A stretch of DNA of 38,928 nt, taken from the NCBI GenBank assembly GCA_012799725.1, contig JAAZKR010000303.1:1-38928 (forward strand), written 5' to 3'. The DNA is from Oligosphaeraceae bacterium (GTDB taxonomy: Bacteria; Verrucomicrobiota; Lentisphaeria; Oligosphaerales; Oligosphaeraceae). A program made the translations under genes and the position numbers. The notes beneath the pieces are model-generated. The model saw only the letters and a list, made by a program, of their open reading frames with translations. It was not told the origin of the DNA and searched no databases. Shown here piece after piece: positions 166 to 32,268 of this stretch (positions within the stretch are counted from its first letter, which is position 1; each line of letters begins with the position of its first letter).

Positions 166-3100
166 TTATGGTTCAATTTTCCAGCATGATACGATTCCAT
201 TTCCTTCTGCCGTCAATAATTTTCCCGGCAATGTTTTGACATCGGTAAAGGTGCCATTCATCCGTTTCAGCAAAGTTGCCTCATGCAGGCTATAAAGTCC
301 TAGATTGCCAGCGAGATATACGGTGCCATCCGAACCGATATGAGCAGCATTGATTTCATCTGGAACGGAAATTTTCTGCTGCAGTGTCGGCTTTTCGGAA
401 GCCGCATCCCATTTCAGCAGGGAAATTGAGCGGTCTTCCTGGCAGACGACAGCCAAGCATTCCTGGCCGACATCATTGCGTATGGCAGCTGCCCGAACCG
501 GTGCCAGAGCCACCCAGCTCCAGGTTATGCGCCGTGTTGCCGTATCATAGACTGTCACAAATGTTTGCGTAATAAGTAAAACTGCGTAGCTTTCCGGGCG
601 TTCTATCGTTTCAAAAACGAAAGTTTTAGCTCCCCAGGTGCCAAAATTGATATTCCAGCCTACTGGGAACTTATGTTCGCTTTTGTCAAAGACTTCCGGC
701 CAGAAGATATGGGTGCCGGGATTACGCACGGAAGGTTCCGGGCTGCCCTCGAGGTGGACGAAGCTGTGCGGTCCAATGGCCAACTGCTCGTCTTGCCCAT
801 CGTTATTGAAATCTCCGCCCTTGTTCAGCATTTGCTGCATGCCGTAGCTGCCGCCGGCCAATACGCCGCGCAACTGGCCTTTTGCATCATAGAAGCTAAG
901 CTGCCCATATCGGGTTGCCACCAGCTCGACGGGATTGCGCCAAGTGCCCAAGGCATACGTTGCCGGGAATCCGGCTGCCGGTTGCCGCGTGTTGCTTCGT
1001 CCATACCGCTGATGAAATTTCTGCAAGTCATCATGCACGCTGATTTTTCGAATGATGGCACCATTCTGATTGAAAAAGGTGATGGAGGTGTCAGCTCCAA
1101 CCATGCCGATCGATTCCGACTCCGGATAATCAAGCACCTTAAGCTCGTGCAAGCCAATCGGAGTATGGAACTGAAAAAGTTCCTTGCCGTCATGATCAAG
1201 ATTGACAAAGCTTGTATTATCAAGCGTATAGCGCCTTGGCCACGCCTTGACTACCTCCGTGCTGACTAAAATATTCGGTTTTGTCGCGATGAATTTCAAC
1301 GGGCAGTCCGGCACGTAAATATCGGAACGGTAAAAAGCCAGCTGTTGCGGGACAGGGCTTTTCAGAAAACGGAAAGACTGCGGCGGCTCGAGCAGTGCCT
1401 TCTGATAATATTTTTCAGTCGGATGCGTTTCGCCATAGTTACGCGTAGTCTGACCCGGCATCCATACCGGTTGCAGCTGAATTTCCCGCCAGTTTTGTCC
1501 ATCATTTGAAACCTGCATCGTTTCTGCTAAAGCGCCTTCGATGGCAATGTTGCGGATTTCACAGATGGGGACGACTTCACCCAGATCGAAATTCTGTTTG
1601 TTCTGATAGCCGGTCAGAATGACCTGTGGCCTAGTTAAACCGCTCCAGTGCCAGAGCTTTTCCGGAAGCACTTCTGCCGGCGTGTCTTTTTGCGTGTCTT
1701 TTTGCGTGTCTTCAGCAGCCTCTGCCGTATCAGTCGGCAATGGAATCTGATCCAGATACTGTTGGCAAAGCTGAAATGCACGCTGATTCTGCTCGATGCT
1801 GACTTTTTCCGGCGCGCGCCCCGCTGCAAACCAGATTTTCGCCTGTTCGAAGTCCCAGTAGAGATCGACCGGTTCGAGCGACTGGAAGAGACTTTCTCCT
1901 GCGACCATCAGATTGCTGCATTTTGAGGCGACAAGGCGCTGCCGGTTAATCTCAAGAAATCCTTGGTCGCTGAAGCTAACAGTTGCCAGATTTCTGCCTT
2001 TTTCCGAGATGGCAATCTGCCCATTTTCGAGATCAAGCAGTTGCAGATTACGATTCACCTGGAGCATTGCGCTGGCGCCAAGCTGTTGTCCCGGCTGCAA
2101 AGCCCCATGATAGCTGAAGCGCGAATTCAGCTTGGCAGCCAAATTCTTCCGGAAATCCTCCGTATTGGTTTCCAATGCAAAGCCCTTGCCTGCACAAGTG
2201 ATGCTGAAGCGGAATTTTCCTTGGGAAGAATGCAAGGCATTAACTGTGTTGGGTTCGGTATTGAACATCGGATTCCAAGTGACACCGATATCATACGTAT
2301 CTTCTTCCATCGCTTTTATGCTGTCATGAACCAGATAACAATCCGGGGCGAACGCGTAGACAGCGCGCTTCCAATCCACCCCGTTCCAGGGACTGATATG
2401 GAGCCTTGCGGCCTGTATGCTGCCTTCCGGGATATCCAGGCTCCACTGCAAATCCGCCAGTGCGGAAAAGATGGCGCGCGCATCGTCGGGCTGTCTGCTG
2501 CGATTGACATGCAGCATGTTGCGCTCGAAGGGCACACCGATACTGTTGTTGTAAAGAGCAGTCCAGCCATTATGCAGCCAGGCATTGCGCTGCGTCGTGA
2601 ACTGAACTATTTCTCCCGGATTGGCAATGTAGCGCTTGGTACCGGACAGCGCCAGAAAAGCCCCCTGGTCATCAAGACGGCTGCGGAAAGTCACCATGTC
2701 CACAGGGTCACGGTCGAGGACTTCGGGATTCACCTGAAAGAAGAGCCGGTTGAAGGACTGGGCATTGAGCCGGTCGGCCAGGGAAGTCCGCACAACGCCC
2801 AGGCGCAGGTCTTCCTCCGGCAGGCGTGGCTCGATATTACTCTGATAGATTCCGATTCCGCAGACATAGCGGTCATCGAACATGCTTTGATTGAAAACAT
2901 TGAAGCTGGACTGTTCTGCGTAGTACTTCCAGCTTCCTTCCCTGAAATAAGCTGCCAGCATGGAAAAGATCATCTTGTAATTGAAGCGGTGCCGAAAGAG
3001 CACATTGTCGCGCATATTGGACTCGTTGAAGAACTCTTTCTGGCTCCATTCGCGGGCTTTGCCGGAATTGAAAAATTCATGGCACTGGTATTTGAGGGCG

Positions 3101-4599
3101 AAGCGGAATGCTGACAGGCTGATTTCCTCGAGTCCGCCGCCTCCGGGTTCTCCGGGAATGGAGTCTTGCCGGTTTGTCATGATAAATCCACGCATGGCGC
3201 GGGAAGATTCGTCCCAGGTAAAATCAACCAGTTCTGCCAGTGGCGATGGCAATTCGAGGTTGTTGCGCATATAATCACTGGTTTCGACGAGGCACATCAA
3301 GGGGGCGGTCACATGCCGGGAAGTAATCGACAGCTTCTCATAGGGTTCCGTCCAATACCTAAACCAGGTCAGGTCTGCCCCCGTCTGCAACTCGAGATAA
3401 TTTTGCAGCAGCAGTTTTTCGGTTTGTGCTTTTTCTTCCGGGGTATGCAAATCGGTCATCACCACTTGGCGCCAAGTTTTGTAGAGCCATTCCATGATAT
3501 AATGATGGGTGTAGGCCATATCCTCGAGCACTGGCTTATAGAGTTCCCTGGCCAGGTTGCGGTAGAAAGGATCACGGGTCCAGTAGTAGGCTATCGCATT
3601 ATGATACCAGCGACGAATCGTATGATAGCCGGCCTCCTTCTGCGGGAATGGGCCGTCAGGAAATTGTTTCCAGAGTTCAATATCGGCCTGCACCCGGTCA
3701 CGGCACTCGCCATCCAGCTTGATTTCATGCAGGAAGGGCAGTTCTGGCTCCAGCAGTTCGAGGAATTTGTCGACAGCCATGCGGATGCCTTCCGCTGAGG
3801 AGCTGCCGATAATGATATGGTTGCGTCCATTGTTCAGTACATTGACTGCTGTACGCACCTCATAGCCGAGAGGACCGGGGTAGTAAGCATCCGAAGCAGC
3901 CAGCATGCGCGTATAAGCCGGCCAGATCGCACGGTTGCTGTCCAGGTTGCCGATAATAATCAGATGACGCTCCGCAAATTCCGGAAGGATTTCGGGGCCG
4001 TCATTGCGGCAAGCCTGTTCGTCTGTGACAATGTTGGCTTGTGAAGGAAGCCGGCTCTGAATTTGGGCAGCCAGCGCGGCATAATCCGCGCCTTCTGCCT
4101 GCTGTCTCGGAATGATAATCGTGCAGGGTTCCCGCAGCGAAGTGACTCCGGAGAATTCTTTTTTCCGTTGCAGGTTCAGCTCGCGGAGTTTGACTGGCTC
4201 CAGTTTGACAGAATGAATGTGGGTGACTGCGTCCTGCTTATTGGGCAATGCTGAAATCGTCAAATTGACTTGCAGTTTTCTGGCATTTCGGACATTGTAA
4301 AATGCGTACACGGTTTGCTTTTCACCAATGCGTGGATAAGCGACCTTCTTCCAATAGCGGGTCGGGATTTCCGGCGCTTGTATCAACAGCGTGACTGCGA
4401 CATTTGATTCTATCTCCGCTGAAAACAAAATATCCTGATTTTCCTCGACCGGAAACTGACTGCTGAAAGTACCGCAGCCCCGGATGTTTTGCAGTTGCTC
4501 ATCCGCTTGGGCGTCTCCGCGAACCTTCGTCCAAGTCTGAGCCTGTACGTTAAGCGAAATAAGCAAAAAGAGAATGCCTGCTTTGTAGAGTGTTTTCAT
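166..4599 (-). CDS. Large secreted protein, putative polysaccharide lyase/hydrolase (paralogue A)
   Basis: This is a secreted protein of about 1,477 residues with no family I can name with certainty. A Sec signal peptide (MKTLYKAGILFLLISLNVQA) is followed by a beta-rich, CBM-like stretch (about 25-140). Next comes an alpha/beta domain (about 155-300) resembling the accessory domain in front of some glycoside hydrolases. A helical Trp/Tyr/His-rich region (about 310-620) and a beta-sandwich-like region (about 640-950) together suggest the toroid-plus-sandwich fold of heparinase or chondroitinase lyases. A low-complexity linker with DTQKDTQKDTP follows. The C-terminus has a discoidin-like segment (VSNDGQNW, about 1030) and a propeller-like part with a calcium-type loop (DFNNDGQDE, about 1265). 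Three overlapping starts exist (TTG 4605, ATG 4602, ATG 4599); 4599 has AGGAG at the best spacing. It lies 21 bases downstream of its paralogue and is probably co-transcribed with it. The enzyme class is inference. Confidence 0.8.
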   Translation of the reverse strand: MKTLYKAGILFLLISLNVQAQTWTKVRGDAQADEQLQNIRGCGTFSSQFPVEENQDILFSAEIESNVAVTLLIQAPEIPTRYWKKVAYPRIGEKQTVYAFYNVRNARKLQVNLTISALPNKQDAVTHIHSVKLEPVKLRELNLQRKKEFSGVTSLREPCTIIIPRQQAEGADYAALAAQIQSRLPSQANIVTDEQACRNDGPEILPEFAERHLIIIGNLDSNRAIWPAYTRMLAASDAYYPGPLGYEVRTAVNVLNNGRNHIIIGSSSAEGIRMAVDKFLELLEPELPFLHEIKLDGECRDRVQADIELWKQFPDGPFPQKEAGYHTIRRWYHNAIAYYWTRDPFYRNLARELYKPVLEDMAYTHHYIMEWLYKTWRQVVMTDLHTPEEKAQTEKLLLQNYLELQTGADLTWFRYWTEPYEKLSITSRHVTAPLMCLVETSDYMRNNLELPSPLAELVDFTWDESSRAMRGFIMTNRQDSIPGEPGGGGLEEISLSAFRFALKYQCHEFFNSGKAREWSQKEFFNESNMRDNVLFRHRFNYKMIFSMLAAYFREGSWKYYAEQSSFNVFNQSMFDDRYVCGIGIYQSNIEPRLPEEDLRLGVVRTSLADRLNAQSFNRLFFQVNPEVLDRDPVDMVTFRSRLDDQGAFLALSGTKRYIANPGEIVQFTTQRNAWLHNGWTALYNNSIGVPFERNMLHVNRSRQPDDARAIFSALADLQWSLDIPEGSIQAARLHISPWNGVDWKRAVYAFAPDCYLVHDSIKAMEEDTYDIGVTWNPMFNTEPNTVNALHSSQGKFRFSITCAGKGFALETNTEDFRKNLAAKLNSRFSYHGALQPGQQLGASAMLQVNRNLQLLDLENGQIAISEKGRNLATVSFSDQGFLEINRQRLVASKCSNLMVAGESLFQSLEPVDLYWDFEQAKIWFAAGRAPEKVSIEQNQRAFQLCQQYLDQIPLPTDTAEAAEDTQKDTQKDTPAEVLPEKLWHWSGLTRPQVILTGYQNKQNFDLGEVVPICEIRNIAIEGALAETMQVSNDGQNWREIQLQPVWMPGQTTRNYGETHPTEKYYQKALLEPPQSFRFLKSPVPQQLAFYRSDIYVPDCPLKFIATKPNILVSTEVVKAWPRRYTLDNTSFVNLDHDGKELFQFHTPIGLHELKVLDYPESESIGMVGADTSITFFNQNGAIIRKISVHDDLQKFHQRYGRSNTRQPAAGFPATYALGTWRNPVELVATRYGQLSFYDAKGQLRGVLAGGSYGMQQMLNKGGDFNNDGQDEQLAIGPHSFVHLEGSPEPSVRNPGTHIFWPEVFDKSEHKFPVGWNINFGTWGAKTFVFETIERPESYAVLLITQTFVTVYDTATRRITWSWVALAPVRAAAIRNDVGQECLAVVCQEDRSISLLKWDAASEKPTLQQKISVPDEINAAHIGSDGTVYLAGNLGLYSLHEATLLKRMNGTFTDVKTLPGKLLTAEGNGIVSCWKIEP
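1680..1712 (-). repeat. In-frame 12-bp tandem repeat in the linker
   Basis: A 12-base unit (GCGTGTCTTTTT on the plus strand) is repeated about 2.7 times inside the large secreted protein gene and encodes the DTQK repeats of the interdomain linker. The unit is a multiple of three, so gain or loss keeps the reading frame. The paralogue's linker has an unrelated sequence. Confidence 0.8.
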
Positions 4600-4620
4600 C
4601 ATCAAACTCCTGCTTTCCTC

Positions 4621-7600
4621 TTATCGTTTCCAGCGGCATACTTCGCCCTTGCTGTCGGCGGTGATCAAATCGCGCTCCAAGCTTTTGACATCAGTGAAAT
4701 TGCCGGGTAGCCGTCTTATCACTTGCTGCCCGGACACTTCGTAGAGTCCTTGTTTGCCGGCGATAAAAACCTCACCCTGCGCCGTGACATGAATGGCATT
4801 GCATTCATCTTGCCAGCTGGTGCGCAGCACAGTCACCGGCTGAGCGGCATCCTTCTGCCAGTCCGTGACCGTGATCGTATTATCGTCACCACAGACTGCC
4901 GCACGCCAATGATCCGCCCCTAGGGCAGCGACATCCGCGCCCGCTACCGGCGCCAATGCTTTCCAGGTGTAAACATATTTTTTATTGCGTCCGTCATAGA
5001 CCAGCATAAACGTACGCGTATAAGCCAGGATGTATTTATCCGCCCCCATATCGAGTTGCTTGAAGCAGAACACCTTCGCCCCCCAAGTGCCAAAGGTGTC
5101 ATTCCAGGAAACGGGGAAGCCGATACGGTTGAACGAATAGACTTCCGGCCAGAAAGTATTTGACCCTGGTGCGCGGACAGACGGCGTATCGGAACCGTCA
5201 AGATGCACCAGATACTGACAGGACAGGCTGATCTGTTCTTCGATGCCATCACCATTGAAGTCAACGCCCTGGTCAAGGGTATAGGGCTGGCTGTAGATGG
5301 CTGCATGCAACATGCCAATCAGAGAACCATTTTCGGCAAAGAAGTTAACTTGTCCATAGCGAGGTGCCACCAGCTGAACAGGGTTGCGCCAAGCCCCCAG
5401 CGAATATGTCGCTGCAAAACCACCTGCCGGATGCCGGATGCCGGGGCGTCCATGCTGCGCATGAAAATCCTTCAAAGACTGGTAGACATCAATATGCAGC
5501 AACGGTTTTCCCTGCTGATCATAAAATTCCAGCTGACCTTCCGCAGTCACCAAGCCAAGGCTGTCCTTCGCCGGATAGTTAAGAAACTTGACCTCATGCA
5601 ATGCCTTCTTGCTTTCATAAAGGAATTTTTCCTCACCGTCATGTTTGAGGATGGCGATGCGATTGTCCTCACTCTGATATCTTCTTGGCCAGGCTTTGAT
5701 CACTTCATTAGCCAACAGCAAATTAGGCTGCGTATTAAGAATTTTCACTGGCCGCCAGGGTGCCAGCTGATCATTGCGGTAGAACTGAATGCATTCCTCT
5801 TTGGCAAAGCGGACGTAACGGGTCTGCACCGGTTCGAGTAAATCCGCCTGCTGAAACCACTTTTCCTGCGGGTGCGTTTCACCGTAATTACGGCAAAGCG
5901 GACCGGAATACCAGCGTCCTTCGAGTGGGACTTTGCGCCAAGCTACACGGTCTTCGGACACTTCCATGAAAGCGGGCAGTTCCTGCTGCACAAAAATACT
6001 GCGCACGGAAGAAAGCTGCATCGTCTCACCAAGATCATATTCCTGCCGCCCGGCGTATCCGAAAAAGACCGGTACCGGCGCGGCAAATTTATTCCAGCTC
6101 CAGAGTTTCTCATAAGCCGATGTTGTGGAAGATTCCTCCCCTGCCCCTGCCTCCGGGAGAGCAGCTGTTGTCTGCGCCGGAATATTCAACCCGTCAAGGT
6201 ACGCACAGCATATATTCTGCACACGCTGGTTCTCGCTGTCGCTGACCTTATGTTGAACATCCCCATTCGAGAAAGTAGTTGCGCTATTAAAATCCCAGAG
6301 AAAATTCGCCTGATCCGGGAGAGAAGCGACAACTATCCCGCCGATCTCGAGTTCAGGCTGATTGCAGCAAACCAGCCGCTGACGACTGATCTCGATGACC
6401 CCGTCAGCAAAGAAATGGATTTCGGAGATGACTTTGCCCTGCTCAGAAATCAAAAAGCGGCTTCCACCTGCGTGATGGAGTGCCCGTTGCGAATCCATCT
6501 GCAGCAATGCCCCCGCCGCCAGCTTCTCACCTTGCTTTAACGGCCCATGAAAAGCAAAGCGCGAATTGAGTTTAGGCGCCAGTTTGTCCAGATAGTTGCG
6601 GGTATTGCTTTCGAGGCGGAAACGCTCCCCCGCGCAAGTAATCGAAAAGGTATGCTCGCCATGTTTGGCCAGCAATGTGTTTTCTGTATTCATCTGCGGA
6701 GTTGCCACCGGGCGCCAGGTGACGCCAATGTCGTAGTCGCCTTCCTGCAAGGCGATCACCGCATCATGCACCAGATAACTTTCCGGATCGAGTTGATACA
6801 ATTGACGCTTCCACTCGACTCCATTGTATGGAGTTATCCGCAACGAGGCCGCCTGCACTTTTTTCAGATCGAGTTTCCAGTCAAGCACAGACATCGGTGC
6901 ATGATCCTGAAGCGCGTCCACACCCTGCCCGGCATGGTTGACATACAGCATATTGCATTCAAAGGGAAGGCCAGTATCCCGATTATACAACCCCGTCCAG
7001 TAATTGTGAAGCCAGGCAATGCCACCAGCGGAAAACTGGGTGATTTCACCGGCCCGGGCCAAATATTTGTCATATCCGGACACTGCCAGAACCGGGCGCT
7101 GCTTCTGGCTGCCACCGGTTAAAATCAGCATCGCCACCGCGTCTCGTCCAGCATTGCGCGGATCCTTGCTGACGGTCTGCTGCCAGAACCGATTTCTGTT
7201 CCGTTCAAGATCGGAGACCTTGCGCAGCAAAAGCCGGTTGTAGTCTTCCGGCATTACAGCGCTGATGCCATTATGAAAATAACCAATGCCGCAGGTATAG
7301 CGATCCGCAAACATCCCCTGCTGGAAAATGTCATAATCGGAGGTGTTATAGTAATACTTCAGCTGGGCATCGCGATAATAACTGCTGAGAATGGAAACGA
7401 TCAAGTGAAAATTAAAGCGGGAGCGGAACAGCACACTGTTGCGGACATTGGACTGATCCAGAAATTCAATATGGGCCCAGTTTCTGGCCATGCCGGACTG
7501 GAAGAAGTCATGTCGGTCATAACGCAACGCAAACCGGTAAAAGGAGAGGATCTGCTCTTCCAGGCCTTGCCCATCGCCTCCGCCGCCATCTTGTTCTTGG

Positions 7601-9027
7601 CGGCTCATGGCAATCCCGTATAATGCTCGGGACATTTCCTCGAAGGTAAAATCCACCAGTTCAAGCAACGGTCCGTCCAGTTCCAGATTATTGCGCAGAT
7701 AATTGCTCAATTCCAGCTGGCACATCCATGGGGATGTGTTGTGGCGCGAGGCCTGCATAACCTGATCATAAGGCGGCGTCATGAATTGCATCCAGTAAAG
7801 ATCGGCGCCTTTCTGGAATTCCAGGTAATTCTGGAAGATCAGCAATTCGGCCTGTGCCTTTTCGGCGTCGCTATACAAATCAGTCATGGCCACCATGCGC
7901 CAGGTCAGGATCAGCCATTCCATGATGTAATGGTGCGTATAAGCCATATCTTTCAACACCGGCTGAAAAAGTTCCCTGGCCATCGTTTTGTAAAAGGCGT
8001 CCCCCGTCCAATAATACAACATGGCATTGTGATACCATCGCCGGATCGTATGATAGCCGGGTTCTTCCTGCGGGAAGGGACCGTCCGGGAATCCTTTCCA
8101 TAACTTGATATCCGCTTCAACCCGGTTGCGGCAGGCGCCATCCAGCCGTATTTCCAGAAGATAGGGCAATTCCTCGACTGCCAGTTCGAGGAAACGCTGC
8201 ACACCGGCTTCGAGTCCCTGCAAGCGCGTACTGCCAATGATAATATGATTGCCGCCCTGATCGAGCACATTGACTGCCGTGCGTACTTCGTAACCCGCCG
8301 CTCCCGGATAATAATTGTCCGAGGCTGCCAGACTGCGGACATAAGCCGGCCAAATGGCACGGTTGCTGTCCAGATTACCTAGAATAATCAGATGACGTGC
8401 AGCAAATTCCGGACGAATGGCCGGCGCATCCTCGAGGCAGACCTCCTGATCCCGAACAATGCGCGGACGTCCGGAAAATTTCGCTTGGATCAATTCTGCC
8501 AGGCGCCGGTGATCCTGCGCCTCGGTATCCTCTGCGGGGATCACGATCAAGGTTTCAGCATCTATGCGGGTAGTTGCGGAAAAAGTTTTTTTGCGTTGCA
8601 ATGGCGTTTTGCTGAAATCGACTTTTTCCAAGCGGACTTCTTGCAGTTTTGTCAGGCCGGGGTTTGCGTATGAGCTTGGAACCGTACGGACTTCGACAGT
8701 CAGGCCGCTGGCGTTCCGGGAATTGTACAACCCCAGGACTTTCTGCTGCTCGCCAATCCGGTTATAGGCTATCTTCTTCCAATAAGGTGCCGATATCTCC
8801 GGTGCCCGGATCAGAAAATTCACCGGGCAGTCGCCTTCCACTACTGCGCTGAACAGATAATCCTGACCAGGCTCCACCGGAAAAGTCCGAGTATAGGTCG
8901 CTGCTCCATGAATTTCACCAAGCTCTGAAACGGACTCTCCCCCGGCACGCTGCCAATTGGCCCAAACCGGATGACTGAAAGCAATCATCCATATCAGAGG
9001 CAACAGATAATCTCTCATCGCCAACAT
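4621..9027 (-). CDS. Large secreted protein, putative polysaccharide lyase/hydrolase (paralogue B)
   Basis: This protein of about 1,468 residues is a full-length paralogue of its downstream neighbour. The two align end to end by eye, with long near-identical runs such as GYHTIRRWYHNA and MAYTHHYIMEWL, and a shared C-terminal FTDVKSLE-type ending. I chose the ATG at 9027 over the longest reading (9126). It has AAGGA 8 bases upstream and gives a signal peptide (MLAMRDYLLPLIWMIAFSHPVWA). The longer form would overlap the upstream gene and bury that signal. Domain order matches paralogue A: a beta-rich N-terminus, an alpha/beta accessory domain, a helical Trp/Tyr-rich region, a beta-sandwich-like region, a linker, a discoidin-like segment (VSEDRVAW) and a propeller-like end with a calcium-type loop (DFNGDGIEE). 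The shared, strictly kept HTIRRWYHN segment could hold active-site residues. The function is inferred, not recognised. Confidence 0.8.
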   Translation of the reverse strand: MLAMRDYLLPLIWMIAFSHPVWANWQRAGGESVSELGEIHGAATYTRTFPVEPGQDYLFSAVVEGDCPVNFLIRAPEISAPYWKKIAYNRIGEQQKVLGLYNSRNASGLTVEVRTVPSSYANPGLTKLQEVRLEKVDFSKTPLQRKKTFSATTRIDAETLIVIPAEDTEAQDHRRLAELIQAKFSGRPRIVRDQEVCLEDAPAIRPEFAARHLIILGNLDSNRAIWPAYVRSLAASDNYYPGAAGYEVRTAVNVLDQGGNHIIIGSTRLQGLEAGVQRFLELAVEELPYLLEIRLDGACRNRVEADIKLWKGFPDGPFPQEEPGYHTIRRWYHNAMLYYWTGDAFYKTMARELFQPVLKDMAYTHHYIMEWLILTWRMVAMTDLYSDAEKAQAELLIFQNYLEFQKGADLYWMQFMTPPYDQVMQASRHNTSPWMCQLELSNYLRNNLELDGPLLELVDFTFEEMSRALYGIAMSRQEQDGGGGDGQGLEEQILSFYRFALRYDRHDFFQSGMARNWAHIEFLDQSNVRNSVLFRSRFNFHLIVSILSSYYRDAQLKYYYNTSDYDIFQQGMFADRYTCGIGYFHNGISAVMPEDYNRLLLRKVSDLERNRNRFWQQTVSKDPRNAGRDAVAMLILTGGSQKQRPVLAVSGYDKYLARAGEITQFSAGGIAWLHNYWTGLYNRDTGLPFECNMLYVNHAGQGVDALQDHAPMSVLDWKLDLKKVQAASLRITPYNGVEWKRQLYQLDPESYLVHDAVIALQEGDYDIGVTWRPVATPQMNTENTLLAKHGEHTFSITCAGERFRLESNTRNYLDKLAPKLNSRFAFHGPLKQGEKLAAGALLQMDSQRALHHAGGSRFLISEQGKVISEIHFFADGVIEISRQRLVCCNQPELEIGGIVVASLPDQANFLWDFNSATTFSNGDVQHKVSDSENQRVQNICCAYLDGLNIPAQTTAALPEAGAGEESSTTSAYEKLWSWNKFAAPVPVFFGYAGRQEYDLGETMQLSSVRSIFVQQELPAFMEVSEDRVAWRKVPLEGRWYSGPLCRNYGETHPQEKWFQQADLLEPVQTRYVRFAKEECIQFYRNDQLAPWRPVKILNTQPNLLLANEVIKAWPRRYQSEDNRIAILKHDGEEKFLYESKKALHEVKFLNYPAKDSLGLVTAEGQLEFYDQQGKPLLHIDVYQSLKDFHAQHGRPGIRHPAGGFAATYSLGAWRNPVQLVAPRYGQVNFFAENGSLIGMLHAAIYSQPYTLDQGVDFNGDGIEEQISLSCQYLVHLDGSDTPSVRAPGSNTFWPEVYSFNRIGFPVSWNDTFGTWGAKVFCFKQLDMGADKYILAYTRTFMLVYDGRNKKYVYTWKALAPVAGADVAALGADHWRAAVCGDDNTITVTDWQKDAAQPVTVLRTSWQDECNAIHVTAQGEVFIAGKQGLYEVSGQQVIRRLPGNFTDVKSLERDLITADSKGEVCRWKR

Positions 9028-9068: not shown

Positions 9069-10142
9069 TTAAAGGAGTCCAAGCCCTTCCAGTTTTGCCC
9101 GTGTTTGGCTGGTGACTCGACCCCATTCCGGCAACGCATCCGTACGCACAACTGCAAGATAAATATCCGCAGCGCCGGACATATCCTTGAAACCCTCCTG
9201 ATCGAGATAGTCATGCTGCGAATAGTAACTGACCAGCATGCGCTGATCATCCAAAGCAACCACGGCCGGATAGGAACAATCCGCACCACTGGGAAAACTC
9301 AAATATTCAGCCCACAACTGCAATTCTTCCACCCAGACATAACAACGCATAAACGTCCCGCCGCGATCAATATATGAACTGCCCAGCCGCGGCGATGCCG
9401 CCCTGTACCGTCCGAATAAAAAACGTCTTCCGTTGACTTTTGCAACCACTGGTCCCTGCAGGCTGGCATGGAAATCCGTCTCTGCGCTCCATTGTTTATA
9501 GGGTGCTTCCGCTTCCCGCAAGGTCAGATGCCCGGAACCGCCTTCATTGCGAATAAAAGCGTACAATTTGCCGTCGTCTTCCAGCAAAGCCGCTTCATTG
9601 CCGGTGCCGCCACGTTGCAATTCCGAGACCAGCTCCCACTTGAAACCATCCTGCGAGCGCAATAAATCCACCTCCCAGGTCCAAGGTTGAAACCCACTCC
9701 GAAAAATCCGGTAGGCAGCCACATAAATGTACTCGCCAATATTGGTCGGATGCCACAGGTGCATCGGAAATGAGGGCTGAATTTCCACCGGTTCCGACCA
9801 ACGAACCCCATCCCGGCTCTCACTGGCATATGCCCGGGAGCTTTTGAACCAGACCGGCTTATCATCTATTTCATAGCCGCTGGTATATAGAAGCAGACGA
9901 TCTTTGAAAGCATGCAGAAAGCCATCGTAATAATTGAGTTTCCCGCTGAAAGGTGTCGTCAGCTCTTCCCAAGTTTGGCCATCGTCAAATGAGCGCATCG
10001 CTGCGATGGCACCATCCTGTTCGGCATGACCACTGGAACGACGCCAGGAAAGATACAAGGCACCCCGGAACCGAACCATGGAAGTGAATGCGTTATGATT
10101 CCCGTCCGATATCAGACGAGTCAATTTTTCAAGCTTTTCCAT
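9069..10142 (-). CDS. Sialidase-like (Asp-box/BNR) protein, apparently cytoplasmic
   Basis: This protein of 357 residues has three Asp-box-like motifs: SFDDGQTW (about 52-59), ESRDGVRW (about 108) and RSQDGFKW (about 163). They are spaced as in the blades of a six-bladed sialidase or neuraminidase-type propeller. The family includes hydrolases of sialic acid and other sugars, but also non-catalytic propellers. The classical FRIP motif near the N-terminus is not evident, so the substrate is open. No signal peptide is visible, in contrast to the two secreted proteins that follow 41 bases downstream. It may therefore act on imported fragments. Two ATGs are possible (10145, 10142); GGAG lies 5 bases before the second. 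It is probably the first gene of a three-gene unit. Confidence 0.75.
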   Translation of the reverse strand: MEKLEKLTRLISDGNHNAFTSMVRFRGALYLSWRRSSGHAEQDGAIAAMRSFDDGQTWEELTTPFSGKLNYYDGFLHAFKDRLLLYTSGYEIDDKPVWFKSSRAYASESRDGVRWSEPVEIQPSFPMHLWHPTNIGEYIYVAAYRIFRSGFQPWTWEVDLLRSQDGFKWELVSELQRGGTGNEAALLEDDGKLYAFIRNEGGSGHLTLREAEAPYKQWSAETDFHASLQGPVVAKVNGRRFLFGRYRAASPRLGSSYIDRGGTFMRCYVWVEELQLWAEYLSFPSGADCSYPAVVALDDQRMLVSYYSQHDYLDQEGFKDMSGAADIYLAVVRTDALPEWGRVTSQTRAKLEGLGLL

Positions 10143-10523
10143 CATCTCTCCCTATAAAATTCCCACGCTACTATCACCCAGAATCTTCTTTTTTAGGAAA
10201 GATTTTCTGGAGAGAAAGCTCCAAGTCATTGGCATACAAGCACTTCTCCGTCTGATTGCGGTGCCTTTACAAGGCACTAGGGTTAAGCATAGTTAAACGC
10301 CTACGGCGTAATGCGTTATGTCAATTCGATGATCTGTCAGATAAAACAACCAACCAGACCGCAAATCCAAGTGCCATTTCATCCGTCAGAGCAGCAACCC
10401 CTATAAAATTTTCGTGTCTTTCGTTGTTAAAAAATGGGTTGTGGGCGGAGCCCGCGCCAAGCTTTCCGTGTGTTCCGTGGTTAAAAAATGGTTTTTTGTC
10501 GCCGGGTTTCTTGAGCATAGCAA
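10143..10523. other. Gene-free spacer with repeats and small hairpins
   Basis: No convincing gene occupies these 381 bases. They hold two perfect small hairpins, both with a TAC loop: GTGCCTT-TAC-AAGGCAC (10261-10277) and ACGCC-TAC-GGCGT (10297-10309). They also hold two copies of a CCGTG-type repeat (separate entry). Any promoter for the sialidase-like gene should lie near 10150-10250, but no clear consensus was seen. Confidence 0.6.
10411..10492 (+). repeat. Two copies of the CCGTGTGTTCCGTGGTTAA repeat
   Basis: Copy 1 (10411-10438) contains TTCGTGTCTTTCGTTGTTAA and copy 2 (10465-10492) contains TCCGTGTGTTCCGTGGTTAA. Both continue with AAAAATGG. They are direct repeats about 54 bases apart, separated by a GC-rich palindrome-like stretch (GGGCGGAGCCCGCGCC). 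They sit just past the stop codon of the nitrilase-like gene. Confidence 0.75.
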
Positions 10524-11765
10524 TCATGCCTGATTCATGCGCTGGTAAACTCCGTTGCGCCGTTCGCGTACATAGAGGCTGCGCCCTTCTCCGTAGCAAG
10601 ACACAGACAGATACCTTGTGCGCAGACGCTTGGTCAGATTGATGTCCGCCCAGGCATAACTGTTGTCTTGCGTGGTTTCTGCCAGGATGCGTCCGATGGG
10701 GTCGTAAATCCGGGAAGCAGCGATTTTGTCTTCCGATGGGATCGAGACTGCGAATGCTGCGGCCATTCCGTTTTCGCCGGCTCGAGCGGCCCAGACATGG
10801 TCGCGGTGCTCCGGAATGCCACAGCCGGCAATAGGCACCAGCATGAGTTCGGCGCCGTTGAGCCGCAAATGCCTTGCGCTTTCTCCGAACCAGTTGTCCC
10901 AGCAGGTGGCAATGCCGACGCAGCCAAAATCAAGCTGAAAAACGGGGAAGCTGTCACCGGGGATAACGCCACTTTCTGATTCGTTCCAGGTCAAGTGCAC
11001 CTTGTGATATTTTCCGGCTATATTTCCTTGCCGGTCAAGGATGACTGCCGTATTGTAATAATTTCCCTGTTCGATTTCATGAATGCCAAAAACTATGTAG
11101 CAGTTCAACTTTCGCGCCCATCCGGCAAAAAGTTCCGTGTTGGGACCCGGCACCGGCTCCGCGCCTTTGCTCAATGGCAGCCCCATGCATAAATCCGGGA
11201 TCGCCTCGGAAAAGAGCACCAGGTCCGGTTTTTCCACTTCTTTGGCAATTTTCTGCAGCAGGCTTTCTACCCGTTTCATCCGTTCAGGGGTTGTTTCGTT
11301 ATTCCAGGTAGGCTGGACCATGGTCGTAACAACTCGTGCGATGCGCTCGGCAGGCGCTGCCGCTGCTTCAACCCGTATGTTTCGAAAACGTACGACGCCT
11401 TCCGCCCATTTTGCGTATAATTTCAGAGTCACCCCCGTAATTCCGGGTTCGCGCTTAAAATCCCTGGCAAACGACAACTGGCCGTCAGCCCTTAAAACCG
11501 GTTCCAGATAATCCATGTGTTGCATGGTGCCGTCCGCAGTATGGAAACAGGCCATGACCCCGACTTTGTTGCCCAACTCCGCAACCGCATCACTGTCAAC
11601 TGCAAGGTGGCAGCCATCTGTCCCCGGAAAGGCAAAATCCTTTTCCCAAATCCCCATCGCCCGCCAGTCTGTCAGCATGATGGACAAAGTCTCCTCCCCG
11701 GAAGATGCAGATACCATTCCCTGTGCCGGAACCCGGGTTTCAGTTGCAGTAAATTTCCAGGACAT
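10524..11765 (-). CDS. Nitrilase-superfamily carbon-nitrogen hydrolase with N-terminal beta-rich domain
   Basis: This protein of 413 residues is predicted to hydrolyse an amide or nitrile C-N bond in the cytoplasm. The nitrilase fold covers about 140-400, with the expected catalytic residues: Glu187 (LFSEAIPD), Lys255 (GKYHKVHL) and Cys288 (GIATCWDNW). The first 135 residues are extra to the family. They look like a jelly-roll, CBM-like domain, ending with RFRNIRVE as such domains often do. Classical nitrilases are about 260-340 residues long. There is no signal peptide. The ATG at 11765 has GGGAG 6-7 bases upstream. It lies between the regulator gene and the sialidase-like gene on the same strand. 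A role in deamidating or deacylating an amino-sugar or glycoconjugate product is inference. Confidence 0.85.
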   Translation of the reverse strand: MSWKFTATETRVPAQGMVSASSGEETLSIMLTDWRAMGIWEKDFAFPGTDGCHLAVDSDAVAELGNKVGVMACFHTADGTMQHMDYLEPVLRADGQLSFARDFKREPGITGVTLKLYAKWAEGVVRFRNIRVEAAAAPAERIARVVTTMVQPTWNNETTPERMKRVESLLQKIAKEVEKPDLVLFSEAIPDLCMGLPLSKGAEPVPGPNTELFAGWARKLNCYIVFGIHEIEQGNYYNTAVILDRQGNIAGKYHKVHLTWNESESGVIPGDSFPVFQLDFGCVGIATCWDNWFGESARHLRLNGAELMLVPIAGCGIPEHRDHVWAARAGENGMAAAFAVSIPSEDKIAASRIYDPIGRILAETTQDNSYAWADINLTKRLRTRYLSVSCYGEGRSLYVRERRNGVYQRMNQA

Positions 11766-11823: not shown

Positions 11824-12858
11824 TCAAGGTGACGCCGGAGGCTGCTGTTCATCATCGGGATTCAAAAACCAGCCATTCAGATAAATTTTCTGAGCTGGCA
11901 AATCTGGATGGCGGATGCGCTCGATACACTGGTAGTAGGCTGCTGTTCCAATCAACTCCCAGTTCACAGCAATCGATGGAAAATGATGAAAGCCCGGCGT
12001 CAGAAGCTGCTTCCCATCCATGCCAAGGATGCAATGCTCTTCAGACAACTCCTTGCCATGCTGCTGCCGAAATTTTACGGCGGCATTATTGGCCCAGCTG
12101 TCCGAAGTGAACAGATAACCGCAGTCGGAACGGTAGCTTCGCGGGAAGTTGCGCATAATCTTACAGATACCGCCGGATTTTTTCCAGAGCATTGCAAAAG
12201 CCATGCCTCGCCGGGTGTAGACTTCCTCGTGGCTGCCGTAAATAGATACGGTTCTACATTTCTGCTTCTGAAAATACTGCACTGCCAATTCGGCCGAACT
12301 CCAGAAATCCAGATTGACCGTCGAGATCGTGCCGTTGTAACTGTTCTCCATCATAATGCCGACCACCGGCACCGGAAGACGCAGGCAGTCCAACATTGCA
12401 TCATATTCCTGCAGCAAAATCACCCCCGAGCATCCCTGTGCCTTTTCCTGCATGAATTCTTCCCTGGCATCGGCCTGATCAAGAGGAATCATCTTCAGCC
12501 GACACCGATCCCGTCGGGCATGGTTGCTGATACTTTTCAATGCCGTATAATACAAACCCTGCTTTTGCTGGCGCGGCGAATAGAATATCCCGATAGTGAT
12601 GCTTCCTTCACCTACATTTGTATTTGATGCCGATTCCTCGCTAATGCAATAAAGCCCCCGGCAGGGTATCTTTTTAAAACGCCCAGTCTTCTCAAGCAAA
12701 TAATCTATCCCACGCTGAACCGTCCCATAACTCAAATCAAATTTGCGCATCAGGAAACGCAACGAGGGCAAACGTTCACCCGGAGAATAAACGCCGGCAA
12801 TCAGACGTTCCTCCAAATAGCTGATCATCTTTGCGGCTTTATCGGGCTTTCGTAACAT
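11824..12858 (-). CDS. GntR-headed LacI-type transcriptional regulator
   Basis: This protein of 344 residues has a GntR-type winged helix-turn-helix at about 8-72 (ERLPSLRFLMRKFDLSYGTV carries the recognition region). It is followed by a LacI/periplasmic-binding-protein-like effector domain (about 85-335), starting at ITIGIFYSPRQQ. This layout is typical of sugar-responsive regulators in Lentisphaerota and Verrucomicrobiota. I placed the start at 12858, where GGGGAG precedes the ATG. The longer reading to 12966 only translates an intergenic tandem repeat. It ends 58 bases before the nitrilase-like gene and is the obvious candidate to control the glycan genes downstream. The operator and the effector sugar are unknown. 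Confidence 0.88.
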   Translation of the reverse strand: MLRKPDKAAKMISYLEERLIAGVYSPGERLPSLRFLMRKFDLSYGTVQRGIDYLLEKTGRFKKIPCRGLYCISEESASNTNVGEGSITIGIFYSPRQQKQGLYYTALKSISNHARRDRCRLKMIPLDQADAREEFMQEKAQGCSGVILLQEYDAMLDCLRLPVPVVGIMMENSYNGTISTVNLDFWSSAELAVQYFQKQKCRTVSIYGSHEEVYTRRGMAFAMLWKKSGGICKIMRNFPRSYRSDCGYLFTSDSWANNAAVKFRQQHGKELSEEHCILGMDGKQLLTPGFHHFPSIAVNWELIGTAAYYQCIERIRHPDLPAQKIYLNGWFLNPDDEQQPPASP

Positions 12859-12916
12859 AAGCTCCCCGGACAAAAAGAAAAAAATGACGAGGAGCACCCA
12901 TTCCTTCCTTGCCCAT

Positions 12917-12944
12917 TCTTGCCCCTCGTCTCTTGCCCCTCGTC
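12917..12944 (-). repeat. 14-bp tandem repeat upstream of the regulator
   Basis: Two perfect copies of a 14-base unit (GACGAGGGGCAAGA on the minus strand) stand in tandem between the pseudopilin and regulator genes. A third, inverted GACGAGG word lies at 12887-12893. It is a fourth type of word-like intergenic repeat in this window and falls in the likely promoter or leader of the regulator. Confidence 0.8.
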
Positions 12945-13020
12945 CATCAAACCTTCTGAAAAACACGAGCTATCGAGCGGATTTTGCACGCCAGCCACTT
13001 AGGCTGTTTTCCTCCTGCCC

Positions 13021-13851
13021 TTACCACTCGGGAATGAAGGAGTACAGACCAGGTTGATAATGGAGAGTGGTACCGCTGCGATACGCATCGGTCAGAGGCG
13101 GGGCGATTGTGGTTAACCTGGTGCCACCCCTAAGCAGGATATACTGAACATGCCCGTCGGTAAAGCCGATGTTATATTTCGCTAAAGCCACGTCATGAAA
13201 CGGCCGGATGGGAATGGTGCTCGTGCTCCACTGGAAATCGGCCATGCCTGCCTCGCCGGTGAGGATGCAAAGCCCGGGCGACTTGACGGCGGAAAGGTTT
13301 TTCCCGGCAAGTCCCATATGGGGCGGAGTCTTGTTGTTGCCAGTTCCGACATTGGTGTTGTTTCCCTCGCCATTGTAGGAGTAGCTGGAACCGCGCCGCT
13401 CGCAGTGATAGCAACATCCGTTGGTCACCCGCCAGGAACCGCGCCCAGGAATGTCAAACGGGCAGATCACAATGCTGTACTTCTCGGCATACTTACGGGT
13501 GGCCGCTTCATTGTTCTGGCTGCACCAGAGATCATCCGGCAGACCCAAATAGGGGTTCACCTGCCCATAATAGGGCTGGCTGGCACCAAAACCCCACACG
13601 CGCAAAGAATAGCTGTTGACCGTCGTCGAGCCGGGAGGCTGACAAGGCCAGTAGTCACTGTTGTCAACAGTGTACATGATGGTACCTAGGTTTATGCTCT
13701 TCAAATTGTTCGCACAAGAAATAAGACGAGCCCTGTCACGCGCTTTGCTCAATGCCGGCAATAACATCGAAGCCAAAATGGCAATAATAGCGATCACGAC
13801 CAGAAGCTCAATTAGAGTAAATGTCTTCTTCTTCGGATGAATGCTGCGCAT
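13021..13851 (-). CDS. Prepilin-type N-terminal methylation domain protein (pseudopilin-like)
   Basis: This protein of 276 residues begins with a short basic leader ([10 protein letters not shown]) followed by the type IV pilin/type II pseudopilin helix ([20 protein letters not shown]). The rest is a secreted globular domain with many Cys, Gly and Tyr residues. Near the C-terminus is FTDGHV, a variant of the H-x9-DG motif of the DUF1559-like group; here the His is 12 residues before DG. The residue before the cleavage site is Thr, not the usual Gly. The start at 13851 has GGAGGG about 8 bases upstream; the longer reading to 14100 lacks support. Such single prepilin-like genes beside glycan genes are abundant in Lentisphaerota, and their role is unknown. 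Surface display or secretion is inference. Confidence 0.88.
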
Positions 13852-14320
13852 AATTACTACCCTCCGTGCTTGGGTGAGTTGAACCTGACCTGACAAGTCG
13901 ATGTCGATATTTGCTGAATCCTTGACAATGCTCACATAGCTGACAAACAACCAAATCCTTTCGGTGTATTTAAGTATATAGGCAAGTACCACTTTTTGCA
14001 AGAAAAAAGAGACTCTATACAGAAAAAAAGTGATCCAAACTGAATCAGAAGGCAGGCTTTTTTGATCCATTCGCAGATACGCTGCCTTCAGGCATCGCAT
14101 TTATTCATGTTTCAAAGCAAGATACATGGTAGGACCATGTACGATTTTAAAGGAATACTTTAATAATCCGTCGTTTATCAAAACTGCCCCATTTCATCAT
14201 TTTCGGCCAATATGCCAATATTCTTTTTTCTTATCCGCCATCTTCTTTGCGTCATTCTCGCTGAATCCAATCCGCTTTCAAAAGACCATGCATAGACCTG
14301 TAGCAAAGCGGCCGTATATG
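13852..14320. other. Spacer between pseudopilin gene and tRNA-Glu terminator
   Basis: No gene is supported in these 469 bases. An AT-rich stretch around 13960-14000 is a plausible promoter zone for the minus-strand pseudopilin gene, but I could not pick a clear -35/-10 pair. Short readings across it have no ribosome-binding site and no recognisable sequence. Confidence 0.5.
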
Positions 14321-26255: not shown

Positions 26256-28253
26256 TTATTCGGTCTGCTGGAAATGCAGTTTAGCATAGAAACCATTATT
26301 TTGCAACAACTCGCGATGCGAGCCGAATTCCTTGACATGGCCGTCCTCCAATACCAGTATCTTATGACAGCGCATAGCCATAGAGACACGTTGCGAGACC
26401 ATGATAGCGGTCTTGCCCTGCAATATCTCCCCGAGTGTCTCCTGAATTTTTCGTTCGGTATTGGCATCGAGTGCAGAGGTACAGTCATCCAGGATTAGCA
26501 ATTCCGGCTCGGTGAGCAGTGCTCTAGCCAGTGAAAGGCGTTGTCGTTGGCCTCCTGACAAGCTGGCACCCTTTTGTCCGATGATAGTCTCGTACTGTGT
26601 TTTCATTTCCATGATAAAATCGTGCATCTGAGCCGCCTTGGCTGCGGCCATGATTTGTTCATTGCTGGCCTCGGGGAAACCATAGCAGATGTTTTCCTTC
26701 ATGCTGCCGCTGAATATCTGCGCCTCCTGTGGTACTACGCCCAGCGATCGCCGCAGTGATTGCAGATTGATTTTCTGCAAATTGATGCCATCAATAAGTA
26801 TTTCACCATGATTGGGTTCATAGATCCTGGAAAGCAGATGCAGCAAAGTAGTTTTTCCGCTACCGCTAGCCCCCATAATGCAAAGCCAGGTGCCGGCCGG
26901 CACTTTGAAGCTGATATCATGCAGAACCGGCTCGGGCGCAGAAATCTCGTTCGTATCGCTCTCATCTGCCTCGCGTCGAATCTTGCTGCTAGGATAGGTG
27001 AAGCCAAGATTGCGCACTTCTATTCCTTGTCGGATCGGCCTAGGAAACAGAACCGAGCTGGGGTCTTCAACGATTTCAACCTCACGGTCCAGCACACCGG
27101 CAACCCGTAAAAGTGAGATACGCATACGCTGCAAGACAAAGTTAAGTTGGGTAAATTCTAGAACTGGCTGGAATAAAGTAATCGTGGCAGACTGCACAAA
27201 TATCATTTTGCCCAAGCTCATCTTGCCGTGCAGAACCAGCCAGCCGCCAAACAGAAAAATACCACAGTTGCACAGATGCGCTAAAATACCGGCTTGACAA
27301 CCCAAAACGGAGCTGATAAACTGCACTTTCAAGGCATCGCGGAAAAAACAGGCCACCAGGCGATGAAAGGCTAATTCCTCGCCAGGCTCGCGCGCATATG
27401 CCTGGATCGCCTTTATCGCATCGATCTTCTGGGTAACCAAGCCGTAAAGACAGGCATTGGTATGACGCAACTCCTGGTTATAATGCCTGATCTGCGGTCG
27501 TTTATTATGATACATCCAACTATATATGGGCATAATCGTCAAGGCAATGCAGGCCATGCGCCAATCGGTGGCAAAAAGGATAATACCGCCAACAAGAATC
27601 ATTGAGCAACAGTGTGTGCCACTAATCAGCAAGGCCATCATCTCAAGCTGAACCGACTCCACATCAGAAAGAATGCGCGACATAAGACGACCAGGACTCA
27701 TGGCCTGATGATAACTCATCGACAATTCCATCACCTTTTTGTGCATATCCTCACGAAGACTACCCATAATGCCTTGGGCAACAACAATATGACGACGCGC
27801 TGCCAAACGGCCGAGCGTATTGAAGAAAAGCTGTGTCAACATGTAGAAAACAGCCAGTATAAAAAGCTTGCGCCCTGCCTCAGGAGGACGCTGCGGCGCG
27901 CGTAGTCCCATGTCTATCTTCTCACCCATGCTGACCACTGGACGCGAAGGAGAACGACCCGAATCACGGTCTGCGGCAGTAATGCTCCGCCTTACCTGCC
28001 CGGCATCATCCTCACGCTCGCCGCCAATAACCAAGATATTATCAACTACCAGGCGTGAAAGATATGAGATAACGTAGACGTAGTTAGAATTGATCGCTAC
28101 CAGCAGCATGCAGACAATCAAAGAATAGCGAAAAGGCCAGGCATACTGTTTGATGAAACGAAAATAAAGCGGCCAGTCCTTGCCGCCGGTCTCTGGGCGC
28201 TGCAAGGGCGGGCGATATTGGTAGCCGCGAAAATGTTCCTTCTTTCCAAACAT
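26256..28253 (-). CDS. ABC exporter half-transporter with degenerate ATP site (subunit B)
   Basis: This 665-residue protein fuses an exporter-type membrane domain (about 35-380, six helices) to an ATPase domain (about 408-665). Walker A (GASGSGKT, 461-468) and the signature LSGGQ (565-569) are canonical. The Walker B catalytic Glu is replaced by Asp (LLILDD, Asp590), and the switch His is replaced by Gln (MVSQRVS, Gln621). Both changes mark the non-hydrolysing site of heterodimeric exporters. A charged 50-residue insert (about 78-127) separates the first two helices. The likely partner is encoded 45 bases upstream. The substrate is unknown: drug, lipid or peptide. There is no peptidase C39 domain. 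Confidence 0.93.
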   Translation of the reverse strand: MFGKKEHFRGYQYRPPLQRPETGGKDWPLYFRFIKQYAWPFRYSLIVCMLLVAINSNYVYVISYLSRLVVDNILVIGGEREDDAGQVRRSITAADRDSGRSPSRPVVSMGEKIDMGLRAPQRPPEAGRKLFILAVFYMLTQLFFNTLGRLAARRHIVVAQGIMGSLREDMHKKVMELSMSYHQAMSPGRLMSRILSDVESVQLEMMALLISGTHCCSMILVGGIILFATDWRMACIALTIMPIYSWMYHNKRPQIRHYNQELRHTNACLYGLVTQKIDAIKAIQAYAREPGEELAFHRLVACFFRDALKVQFISSVLGCQAGILAHLCNCGIFLFGGWLVLHGKMSLGKMIFVQSATITLFQPVLEFTQLNFVLQRMRISLLRVAGVLDREVEIVEDPSSVLFPRPIRQGIEVRNLGFTYPSSKIRREADESDTNEISAPEPVLHDISFKVPAGTWLCIMGASGSGKTTLLHLLSRIYEPNHGEILIDGINLQKINLQSLRRSLGVVPQEAQIFSGSMKENICYGFPEASNEQIMAAAKAAQMHDFIMEMKTQYETIIGQKGASLSGGQRQRLSLARALLTEPELLILDDCTSALDANTERKIQETLGEILQGKTAIMVSQRVSMAMRCHKILVLEDGHVKEFGSHRELLQNNGFYAKLHFQQTE

Positions 28254-28298
28254 CTATAATGAACAAGCAATTTTTAACTGATTTGCAAGAAATGCAAA

Positions 28299-30065: not shown

Positions 30066-30229
30066 GCTTTATAAATGTTTTATCTAGCGGACGGCAACTT
30101 CAATTTACGTGCCTTATATGCCTCGATACAGCTTCCTATCTAACACCGGCATCTCTGAATCCGGCATTCCAAACTCAGGCAGCGCCATATCCCTTCGGGA
30201 TGCCTTGCGCCCGGTGGTTTTCTACTGCC

Positions 30230-31339
30230 TTACCAGTCGAGGTTCAGCAGATAGAGCCAAAGACTGGATTTTCCGTAATAAATGCGCGCCTCAGCAGTAG
30301 TGCCCGGCGGGACGATGTGCTCTCCGGGATCAAAGCTGCAGTAAGCCATGCGATAGTTGCTTTTGCCGTCACCTTGAATTACATTGCGCAAATATGCTAC
30401 CTCACCGTAGAAATACTGCCGCAACAAGCCCTGATACGAGGAGAGGCGAGCGCGGTATTTTTGCCCCACGCCGATCTTCATGGCATGGCGCTCGCTGATG
30501 CGAAGCTTCAACACCTGCTTGTCACCACCGAAAATTTCGTAGATAACACTGTTTGGGGTTAGCAGTTCGCCGACCACAAACTCATAACGCACCACAACAC
30601 CGGCGATTGGTGCACGGATAAGCCTGGTTTGCAGCCTGGCCTCAACCCGGCGCACCGCATCCTCCAAAGCACGCAGCTCATTGGCTAATGCGTCGATCTC
30701 CTGGTCATATTTTTGACGGTCGCGCTTCAGCAGTTCCTCGTAAATGGTGAAGTCCTTATTTTGCAAGCTGCTGAGATGTACCTTGGCAAGCTGTTCTTTA
30801 AGACGGTCATCTTCCAGGTTGCTGGCCGCTTTCAAACCTTTGGCAACCAATTCACCGGTCAATTTCAGGCGAGTCTGAGCATTTTTCAGCTGCAATTCGG
30901 CAATCTCCAGATTGTCTTTGTGCGTACGCTGTTGTTCCATCAGGTCAACGCCCCGGCGTTCCAAGTCTATGGCCATTTCGGCCTTACGCCGCTCCACCTC
31001 AGTCTGCAACTTGGAGACTCTGGCCTTGGTTTCGGCCAGCAACGCCTCTTCCTCCTCCGAGCTCAGCTGCACCAATACCTGTCCAGCCTCCACAGTGCTA
31101 CCGCTGCTGACCAAGATTTTGCTTACTATCCCGGTCAATGGCGAGCGCACCTCGGCATAGTCCTCGGTGGTAACATACCCGGTAGCGACGGTATAGCGTT
31201 GTATTTTGATCAGGCAGCCCGCCGTGATCAGGACGGTCAAAAACACAAACAGCGACAGCAGGAAGACCTTGCGTCGCCGCTTGCTCTCTTTTTGGGTCAG
31301 CGGCAACTCCTCGCCGGTAGTAACTCGCAAGTCGCCCAT
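30230..31339 (-). CDS. HlyD-family periplasmic adaptor (membrane fusion protein)
   Basis: This 369-residue protein links the inner-membrane ABC exporter to the outer-membrane channel. One membrane helix (about 25-46) follows a basic cytoplasmic tail. A biotinyl-lipoyl half-motif (VRSPLTGIVSKILVSSGSTV, about 64-83) comes next, then a long helical hairpin rich in Glu, Lys and Arg (about 92-240). The second lipoyl half (IRAPIAGVVVRYEFVVGELL) and a beta-barrel domain end the protein. The domain order is complete and the length is usual for the family. AAGGGG precedes the ATG at about 10 bases. It sits between the Cys-rich protein and ABC subunit A. The long hairpin fits docking onto a TolC-type channel. 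Confidence 0.93.
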   Translation of the reverse strand: MGDLRVTTGEELPLTQKESKRRRKVFLLSLFVFLTVLITAGCLIKIQRYTVATGYVTTEDYAEVRSPLTGIVSKILVSSGSTVEAGQVLVQLSSEEEEALLAETKARVSKLQTEVERRKAEMAIDLERRGVDLMEQQRTHKDNLEIAELQLKNAQTRLKLTGELVAKGLKAASNLEDDRLKEQLAKVHLSSLQNKDFTIYEELLKRDRQKYDQEIDALANELRALEDAVRRVEARLQTRLIRAPIAGVVVRYEFVVGELLTPNSVIYEIFGGDKQVLKLRISERHAMKIGVGQKYRARLSSYQGLLRQYFYGEVAYLRNVIQGDGKSNYRMAYCSFDPGEHIVPPGTTAEARIYYGKSSLWLYLLNLDW

Positions 31340-31401
31340 GATCTAATCACCCCTTTTAATTCGTAAGCACTCAGACTAGACAGCCAATTGCATCTGCCAA
31401 G

Positions 31402-32196: not shown

Positions 32197-32268
32197 ATGA
32201 GAACCTCCCGCTATGTTTTCAGGTGAAAACGAGCAAAGTCGCTTCCCCTCGCTATATATTGTCAGACC

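Follow-up and report, generated by a model that had tools for sequence, protein, structure and literature searches.

Polysaccharide lyases built on an (alpha/alpha) toroid count among the principal tools with which heparin, hyaluronan, alginate and ulvan are cleaved, and one Tyr/His core is held to underlie their mechanism. In the heparinase II/III-like lyases (polysaccharide lyase families PL12, PL15, PL17, PL21, PL33, PL35 and PL39), as well as in dermatan sulfate epimerase 1, the toroid is followed by an antiparallel beta-sheet domain, and the same order was identified here for the products of two tandem genes, D1 and D2, of an anaerobic Oligosphaeraceae bacterium (class Lentisphaeria). Both genes lie in a stretch of 38,928 nucleotides (GCA_012799725.1, contig JAAZKR010000303.1, here C165), hereafter called the window, which comes from a genome of 3.25 Mb in 314 contigs that is 93% complete. 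The apparatus described for the known lyases (PMC12088678; PMC11848413) comprises an Asn or His for neutralisation, a Tyr located 52-57 residues further on, a His of the beta-sheet domain as well as metal ligands of the form HxHxD ... D ... H, the PL35 metal ligands being taken as given in PMC12088678. The PL40 ulvan lyase Uly1040 likewise combines a toroid with an antiparallel beta-sheet domain (PMC12915356), whereby this two-domain enzyme of 856 residues employs His485 and Tyr305 together with a metal, none of which is found in D1 or D2. Compared to the heparinase II/III-like lyases, D1 and D2 possess additional N-terminal beta and alpha/beta domains as well as a C-terminal jelly roll and propeller, but lack the Asn/Tyr/His residues and the metal ligands. 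We suggest, with a probability of about 0.5, that they are glycan-active members of the heparinase II/III-like superfamily, secreted and composed of several domains, and belong to a clade with a rebuilt active site.

Fold and family of D1 and D2

Residues of D1 are numbered according to the 1501-residue product of its longer open reading frame (ORF), which reaches position 9126 and in which residue 34 is the likely true start. The protein was modelled with AlphaFold2 using 75 family sequences and no templates, and residues 58-985 were obtained with confidence (predicted local distance difference test, pLDDT, 87.9; predicted template modelling score, pTM, 0.87). When the D1 model was compared with the PDB by Foldseek, places 1-34, with 4mmi at E 3.7e-14, were all occupied by toroid lyases or dermatan sulfate epimerase, including heparinase III, dermatan sulfate epimerase 1 and members of PL15, PL17, PL35, PL39 and PL33, the best of these folds being just 8-13% identical to D1. 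The template modelling score amounts to about 0.4 relative to the query and to 0.63 relative to the PL35 GAGase VII (8khw), whereby the low query-based value results in part from the first 280 residues, which have no counterpart. A lower match over a shorter stretch was obtained for BcsB of cellulose synthase (E 1.5e-5), which would cover the N-terminal beta and alpha/beta pair. The C-terminal 500 residues were modelled as jelly roll and propeller. The models bear out the domain order that a sequence-only reading of the window had proposed, i.e., a beta N-terminus, an alpha/beta domain, a helical region (the toroid), a beta-sandwich, a linker, a discoidin-like segment (the jelly roll) and a propeller; its assumption of a centre of the polysaccharide-lyase type is likewise supported by the toroid plus beta-sandwich seen in the model and the Foldseek search. 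Also the calcium loop it had placed in the propeller was recovered, as the FG-GAP-like motif DxNxDGxxE (D1289, D1293, G1294 and E1297) is invariant across the clade that D1 and D2 form with eight relatives.

At the sequence level, neither protein was matched in single-sequence searches of Pfam and NCBIfam, PF07940 (Hepar_II_III_C) matched neither above the Pfam gathering cut-off, and a phmmer search with D1 matched no chain of the PDB; the view that no existing family profile covers the centre was hence upheld for Pfam and NCBIfam. Single-protein searches of named genomes and a plasmid search returned nothing useful, and a first PDB profile search yielded mostly propeller matches next to a weak toroid match (alginate lyase 3nfv, E 0.006), which was not used for substrate assignment. 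Full-length relatives were recovered by searching the genomes of the phylum, and a profile search of the class located a wider family, often multi-copy, in 45 of 198 Lentisphaeria genomes. This family is large and without a name, the D1/D2 clade being one of its branches, for which nine full-length members were aligned and fragments occur in a tenth place; named matches of the clade are Lentisphaeria assemblies, including ones from roe deer cecum and goat rumen and one titled Victivallis vadensis. Among open-licence papers, no description of the D1/D2 family was found. Profile-profile comparison, the E values of which are single-comparison values, connected the clade to a canonical branch of the family that carries NH and HxHxD motifs (E 3e-71) and that branch in turn to Hepar_II_III proteins (E 3e-20), and direct comparison of the clade with PF07940-recognised proteins gave a probability of 80% (E 1.5e-6). 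The assigned fold and the membership of D1 and D2 in the heparinase II/III superfamily are considered almost certain.

The toroid (59%) and the alpha/beta domain (57%) are the parts in which D1 and D2 show the highest identity, as compared to 37-42% elsewhere and 23% in the linker. The earlier proposal that the most similar stretches locate to the helical region is consequently correct for the toroid, but not uniquely so, as equally good 20-residue windows are found at 239-251 of the alpha/beta domain. Across the family, conservation extends most widely in the alpha/beta domain (G250, N255, D270, P274, G275, G278, G304), and for this domain a weak Glyco_hydro_20b match was noted in one relative (E 0.026). 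The lambda-carrageenase propeller (Pfam Beta-prop_CGLA) is matched by 7 of 28 family members, at best with 5.8e-25, but not by D1 or D2.

Canonical lyase residues in the sister branch and in the clade

The canonical branch consists of 25 members (L064, L083, L044 and 22 others), whose N-terminal, alpha/beta, toroid and sandwich domains are homologous to those of D1 at about 17% identity in the profile alignment. As its members were selected by HxHxD, it is the count of NH that carries information: NH was found in 25/25, a Tyr at +51-53 in 24/25 by the motif used, and the HxHxD His at +210-219 (mostly +210-217) in 23/25 and at +233 and +243 in the other two, mostly together with YHN. The same motifs were paired when this branch was profile-aligned with Hepar_II_III proteins. 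H462, W772, R774 and D788 of D1 are invariant and common to the canonical branch, which aligns with these proteins.

Unlike the canonical branch, which keeps NH, Tyr, HxHxD and YHN, the nine full-length clade members read RH at the site of the neutralising pair (RH 9/9, NH 0/9), and HxHxD, whose first His is the catalytic His of the beta-sheet domain, is deleted (0/9). YHN is replaced by E-[C/R/Q/K]-N, which is E-C-N with E723 in D1. A catalytic Tyr was not found about 52-57 residues past the neutraliser, where D1 possesses Leu522 and D2 likewise a Leu, and the PL35-type metal site HxHxD ... D ... H is absent from the clade. As just three His are invariant in the clade (294, 398 and 462), none in the beta-sandwich and none after 462, and no Tyr is invariant between 463 and 582, the loss of His and Tyr is independent of the fine alignment. 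D1 and D2 lack the residues that define the catalytic families tested (PL12, PL15, PL17, PL33, PL35 and PL39) and are, by their sequences, placed outside each of them, whereby a similar substrate may still apply. The suggestion that the conserved helical region represents a lyase active site is, in this form, not supported by the comparison, the His/Tyr/metal apparatus being located in the sister branch and absent from the clade. The change is broader than the clade, as a second RH-type branch of 34 sequences (A4 rows L040-L061, L085-L109 and others) holds HxHxD in just two of them and conserves R461-H462, Y398-H399-Y400 and W521 instead.

A set of 27 polar residues is invariant in the clade and present in under 25% of the other family members, including R363-W364-Y365, Y396-T397-H398, E403, N433, D442, E524 and R531 as well as E723 of the sandwich. 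The toroid, with 29% of the length, holds 18 of these 27 (p 7e-5), a post hoc count for a region that is also better conserved overall. The clade proteins are under purifying selection, with a ratio of nonsynonymous to synonymous substitution rates (dN/dS) of about 0.1; for relatives that are 71-81% identical, dN is about 0.11-0.20 and dS 1.1-1.8, the latter being near saturation.

Interpretation of the altered site

Based on fold, extra domains and locus, both the secretion of D1 and D2 and a role on glycans are likely. A rebuilt rather than a dead site is preferred because the clade-specific residues concentrate and the neighbouring genes are catabolic. By analogy to known lyases, the substrate would probably occupy the cleft that toroid and beta-sandwich form, while jelly roll and propeller may help to retain the polymer. 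Here, the R461-H462 pair together with Y396, H398, E403, D442, E524, R531 and E723 would stand in for the Asn/Tyr/His/metal apparatus, whereby E524, near the lost Tyr, and E723, beside the lost metal His, are candidates for general acid and base; such carboxylates would make D1 and D2 hydrolases or unusual lyases. Judged from gene order, the products may be passed on to a signal-less BNR propeller protein, to an amidase and, in relatives, to a 2-hydroxyacid dehydrogenase. More tentatively, the clade and perhaps all RH-type branches could cleave glycans by a mechanism undescribed on the heparinase fold, depending on Arg-His and carboxylates and possibly reflecting a lyase turned glycoside hydrolase. 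From the residues present, a plain His/Tyr beta-eliminase is unlikely. What had been proposed from the sequence, a polysaccharide-degrading lyase or hydrolase, is thus plausible as far as activity on polysaccharides is concerned and doubtful with regard to a lyase, as the canonical residues are gone.

Several points weigh against a rebuilt site. Four members of the g25 lineage do hold a Tyr near the lost position (DNYVEL, DNYAEL; DNY in L020, L021, L129 and L033), which is Leu in D1, D2 and L080; the D1 loop 515-520, expected to carry the catalytic Tyr, was modelled with pLDDT below 50; and the strong conservation fits a binding protein, too. SusD-like proteins of other bacteria bind polysaccharide at the cell surface, and D1 and D2 could be pseudo-lyases that have lost catalysis and bind polysaccharide there by means of jelly roll, propeller and inactive cleft. 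This would agree with the disappearance of every canonical catalytic and metal residue, with the presence of several non-catalytic domains and with intact proteins under purifying selection, but the clade-invariant polar residues gather in the toroid and not in the binding domains, among them are Glu, Asp and His, whose invariance a binding site would not require, and as the operon of the window revealed no further secreted depolymerase, something must cut; pseudo-lyases are hence regarded as unlikely, yet as a reading to be taken seriously. Somewhat less credible are ordinary uronate beta-eliminating lyases in which other residues replace His and Tyr. They would share the superfamily fold, an Arg is able to neutralise a carboxylate (cf. 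Arg314 listed for PL15 in PMC12088678), and H462, invariant in all 75 family members, occupies the position of the catalytic base of PL15 and PL21 (PMC11848413); however, acid and base are a Tyr, usually together with a His, in the families of PMC12088678, and neither is conserved in the clade. Decaying paralogues without function, for which solely the loss of canonical residues speaks, are highly improbable in view of intact ORFs, the low dN/dS and a locus conserved across genomes assigned to several taxonomic families.

Gene neighbourhood, spread and meaning for the family

The sequence-only description of two full-length secreted tandem paralogues was confirmed: both ORFs (Table 1) are intact, the proteins share 46% identity over 1449 residues (E = 0), and both N-termini, judged by eye, resemble signal peptides. 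For D1, the ATG at 9027 is the favoured start, as AAGGA is located 8 nt upstream and a start at 9126 would make the ORF run into its upstream neighbour. D2 starts at 4602/4599, and as just 18 bp separate it from the end of D1, a single transcript is very likely.

Table 1. Features of the D1/D2 locus and of its upstream genes (positions in the window)
Feature	Position	Strand	Basis
D1, secreted heparinase-fold protein, 1468 residues from ATG 9027	4621..9027	minus	ORF, Shine-Dalgarno-like AAGGA, 46% identity to D2
D2, secreted heparinase-fold paralogue, 1478 residues	169..4602	minus	ORF, GGAG upstream of start
D1 signal peptide, residues 34-56	8959..9027	minus	read by eye from sequence
D1 N-terminal beta domain, residues 58-178	8593..8955	minus	model secondary structure
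D1 alpha/beta domain, residues 179-335	8122..8592	minus	model, alignments
D1 (alpha/alpha) toroid, residues 336-606	7309..8121	minus	model, Foldseek
D1 R461-H462, at site of N/H carboxylate-neutralising pair of known lyases	7741..7746	minus	alignments, profile-profile alignments
D1 antiparallel beta-sandwich, residues 607-980	6187..7308	minus	model, Foldseek, alignments
D1 jelly-roll (discoidin-like) domain, residues 1011-1135	5722..6096	minus	model
D1 beta-propeller, residues 1136-1501, one FG-GAP-like Ca loop	4624..5721	minus	model, Foldseek
BNR-type propeller protein, no evident signal peptide	9069..10145	minus	BNR_2 E 5.5e-05, below Pfam cut-off
Nitrilase-superfamily (CN_hydrolase) amidase with extra N-terminal domain	10524..11765	minus	Pfam 1.9e-38
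GntR-type regulator	11824..12966	minus	Pfam 8.5e-07
DUF1559 pseudopilin, prepilin signal FTLIELLV	13021..14100	minus	Pfam

The BNR propeller gene directly upstream of D1 has homologues of 46-62% identity beside every clade member. Of 198 genomes, 8 encode a close homologue (over 480 bits), and a clade protein adjoins in 8/8 (in G452 identified via tblastn). When this partner was checked for a sialidase identity, the PDB profile matches were weak (best 5hx0, E 1.4e-4; sialidases from E 2.6e-4 upwards). The substrate may be easier to approach through the BNR protein. The amidase architecture is repeated in L134 and, judged by the sequence start, in L135; for the GntR regulator a 44% identical gene was found in L048/L134. 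The L134 and L135 loci again hold the amidase, GntR and pseudopilin kinds, plus the 2-hydroxyacid dehydrogenase downstream, whereas L136 and L137 differ in possessing an oxidoreductase (seen for L050, which shares its locus with L137) and a regulator of the AraC type (L136; L137 alike by eye). A gene with a prepilin signal is present in all clade loci but two: the L049 contig reaches 150 bp beyond the BNR gene on its upstream side, and L167 is a contig of 3.15 kb.

The possibility of a sulfated substrate was weighed but is disfavoured, as zero sulfatases were found in the genome of the window as compared to 2-7 in six others; this genome encodes one PF07940 protein. Outside the D1/D2 clade, a role on sulfated glycans is suggested by the locus L056 (genome G361), in which a sulfatase and a heparinase-like protein accompany two members that are more distant in the family. 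Two pseudopilin ORFs of L134 (6577-7740 and 13348-14682) each carry three in-frame prepilin signals FTLIE[L/Q]LV, about 36-78 residues apart, before a single mature domain. Elsewhere in the window, two neighbouring T2SSE-type secretion ATPases (34440-37157) could possibly drive the pseudopilin near the D1/D2 locus, and one minus-strand run (26256-33753) comprises two ATP-binding cassette transporters, an HlyD-type fusion protein and an outer-membrane efflux protein.

In a quick tree search, the clade forms one side of a branch with 96% support in the Shimodaira-Hasegawa-like approximate likelihood ratio test (SH-aLRT). D2 is nearer to L080 (genome G424) than to D1 (98% SH-aLRT) and the other known tandem pair (G199) resides on a different branch, so that a recent duplication was rejected; the tandem order therefore arose more than once, or is old and was followed by losses. 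No clade members were obtained at comparable scores from G002, a genome of the same genus, or from the 27 further genomes searched in its taxonomic family, and the patchy spread over taxonomic families may point to horizontal transfer. Two clade proteins, L050 and L051, are 81% identical while their genomes are placed in different taxonomic families (f14 and f8), a hint at either horizontal transfer or misassigned assemblies.

Within one family of one bacterial class, a textbook site is found next to branches that have replaced it, with full-length homology between them. As both site types occur within one homologous family, a change of chemistry on a lyase scaffold becomes directly testable. 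D1 and D2 are, by their sequences, probably sugar-polymer enzymes or binders, whose way of acting may be a new one. This provides a function to seek for proteins that rank among the largest secreted ones without annotation in the Lentisphaeria, which are represented by assemblies from the gut, the rumen and further anaerobic or environmental sources.

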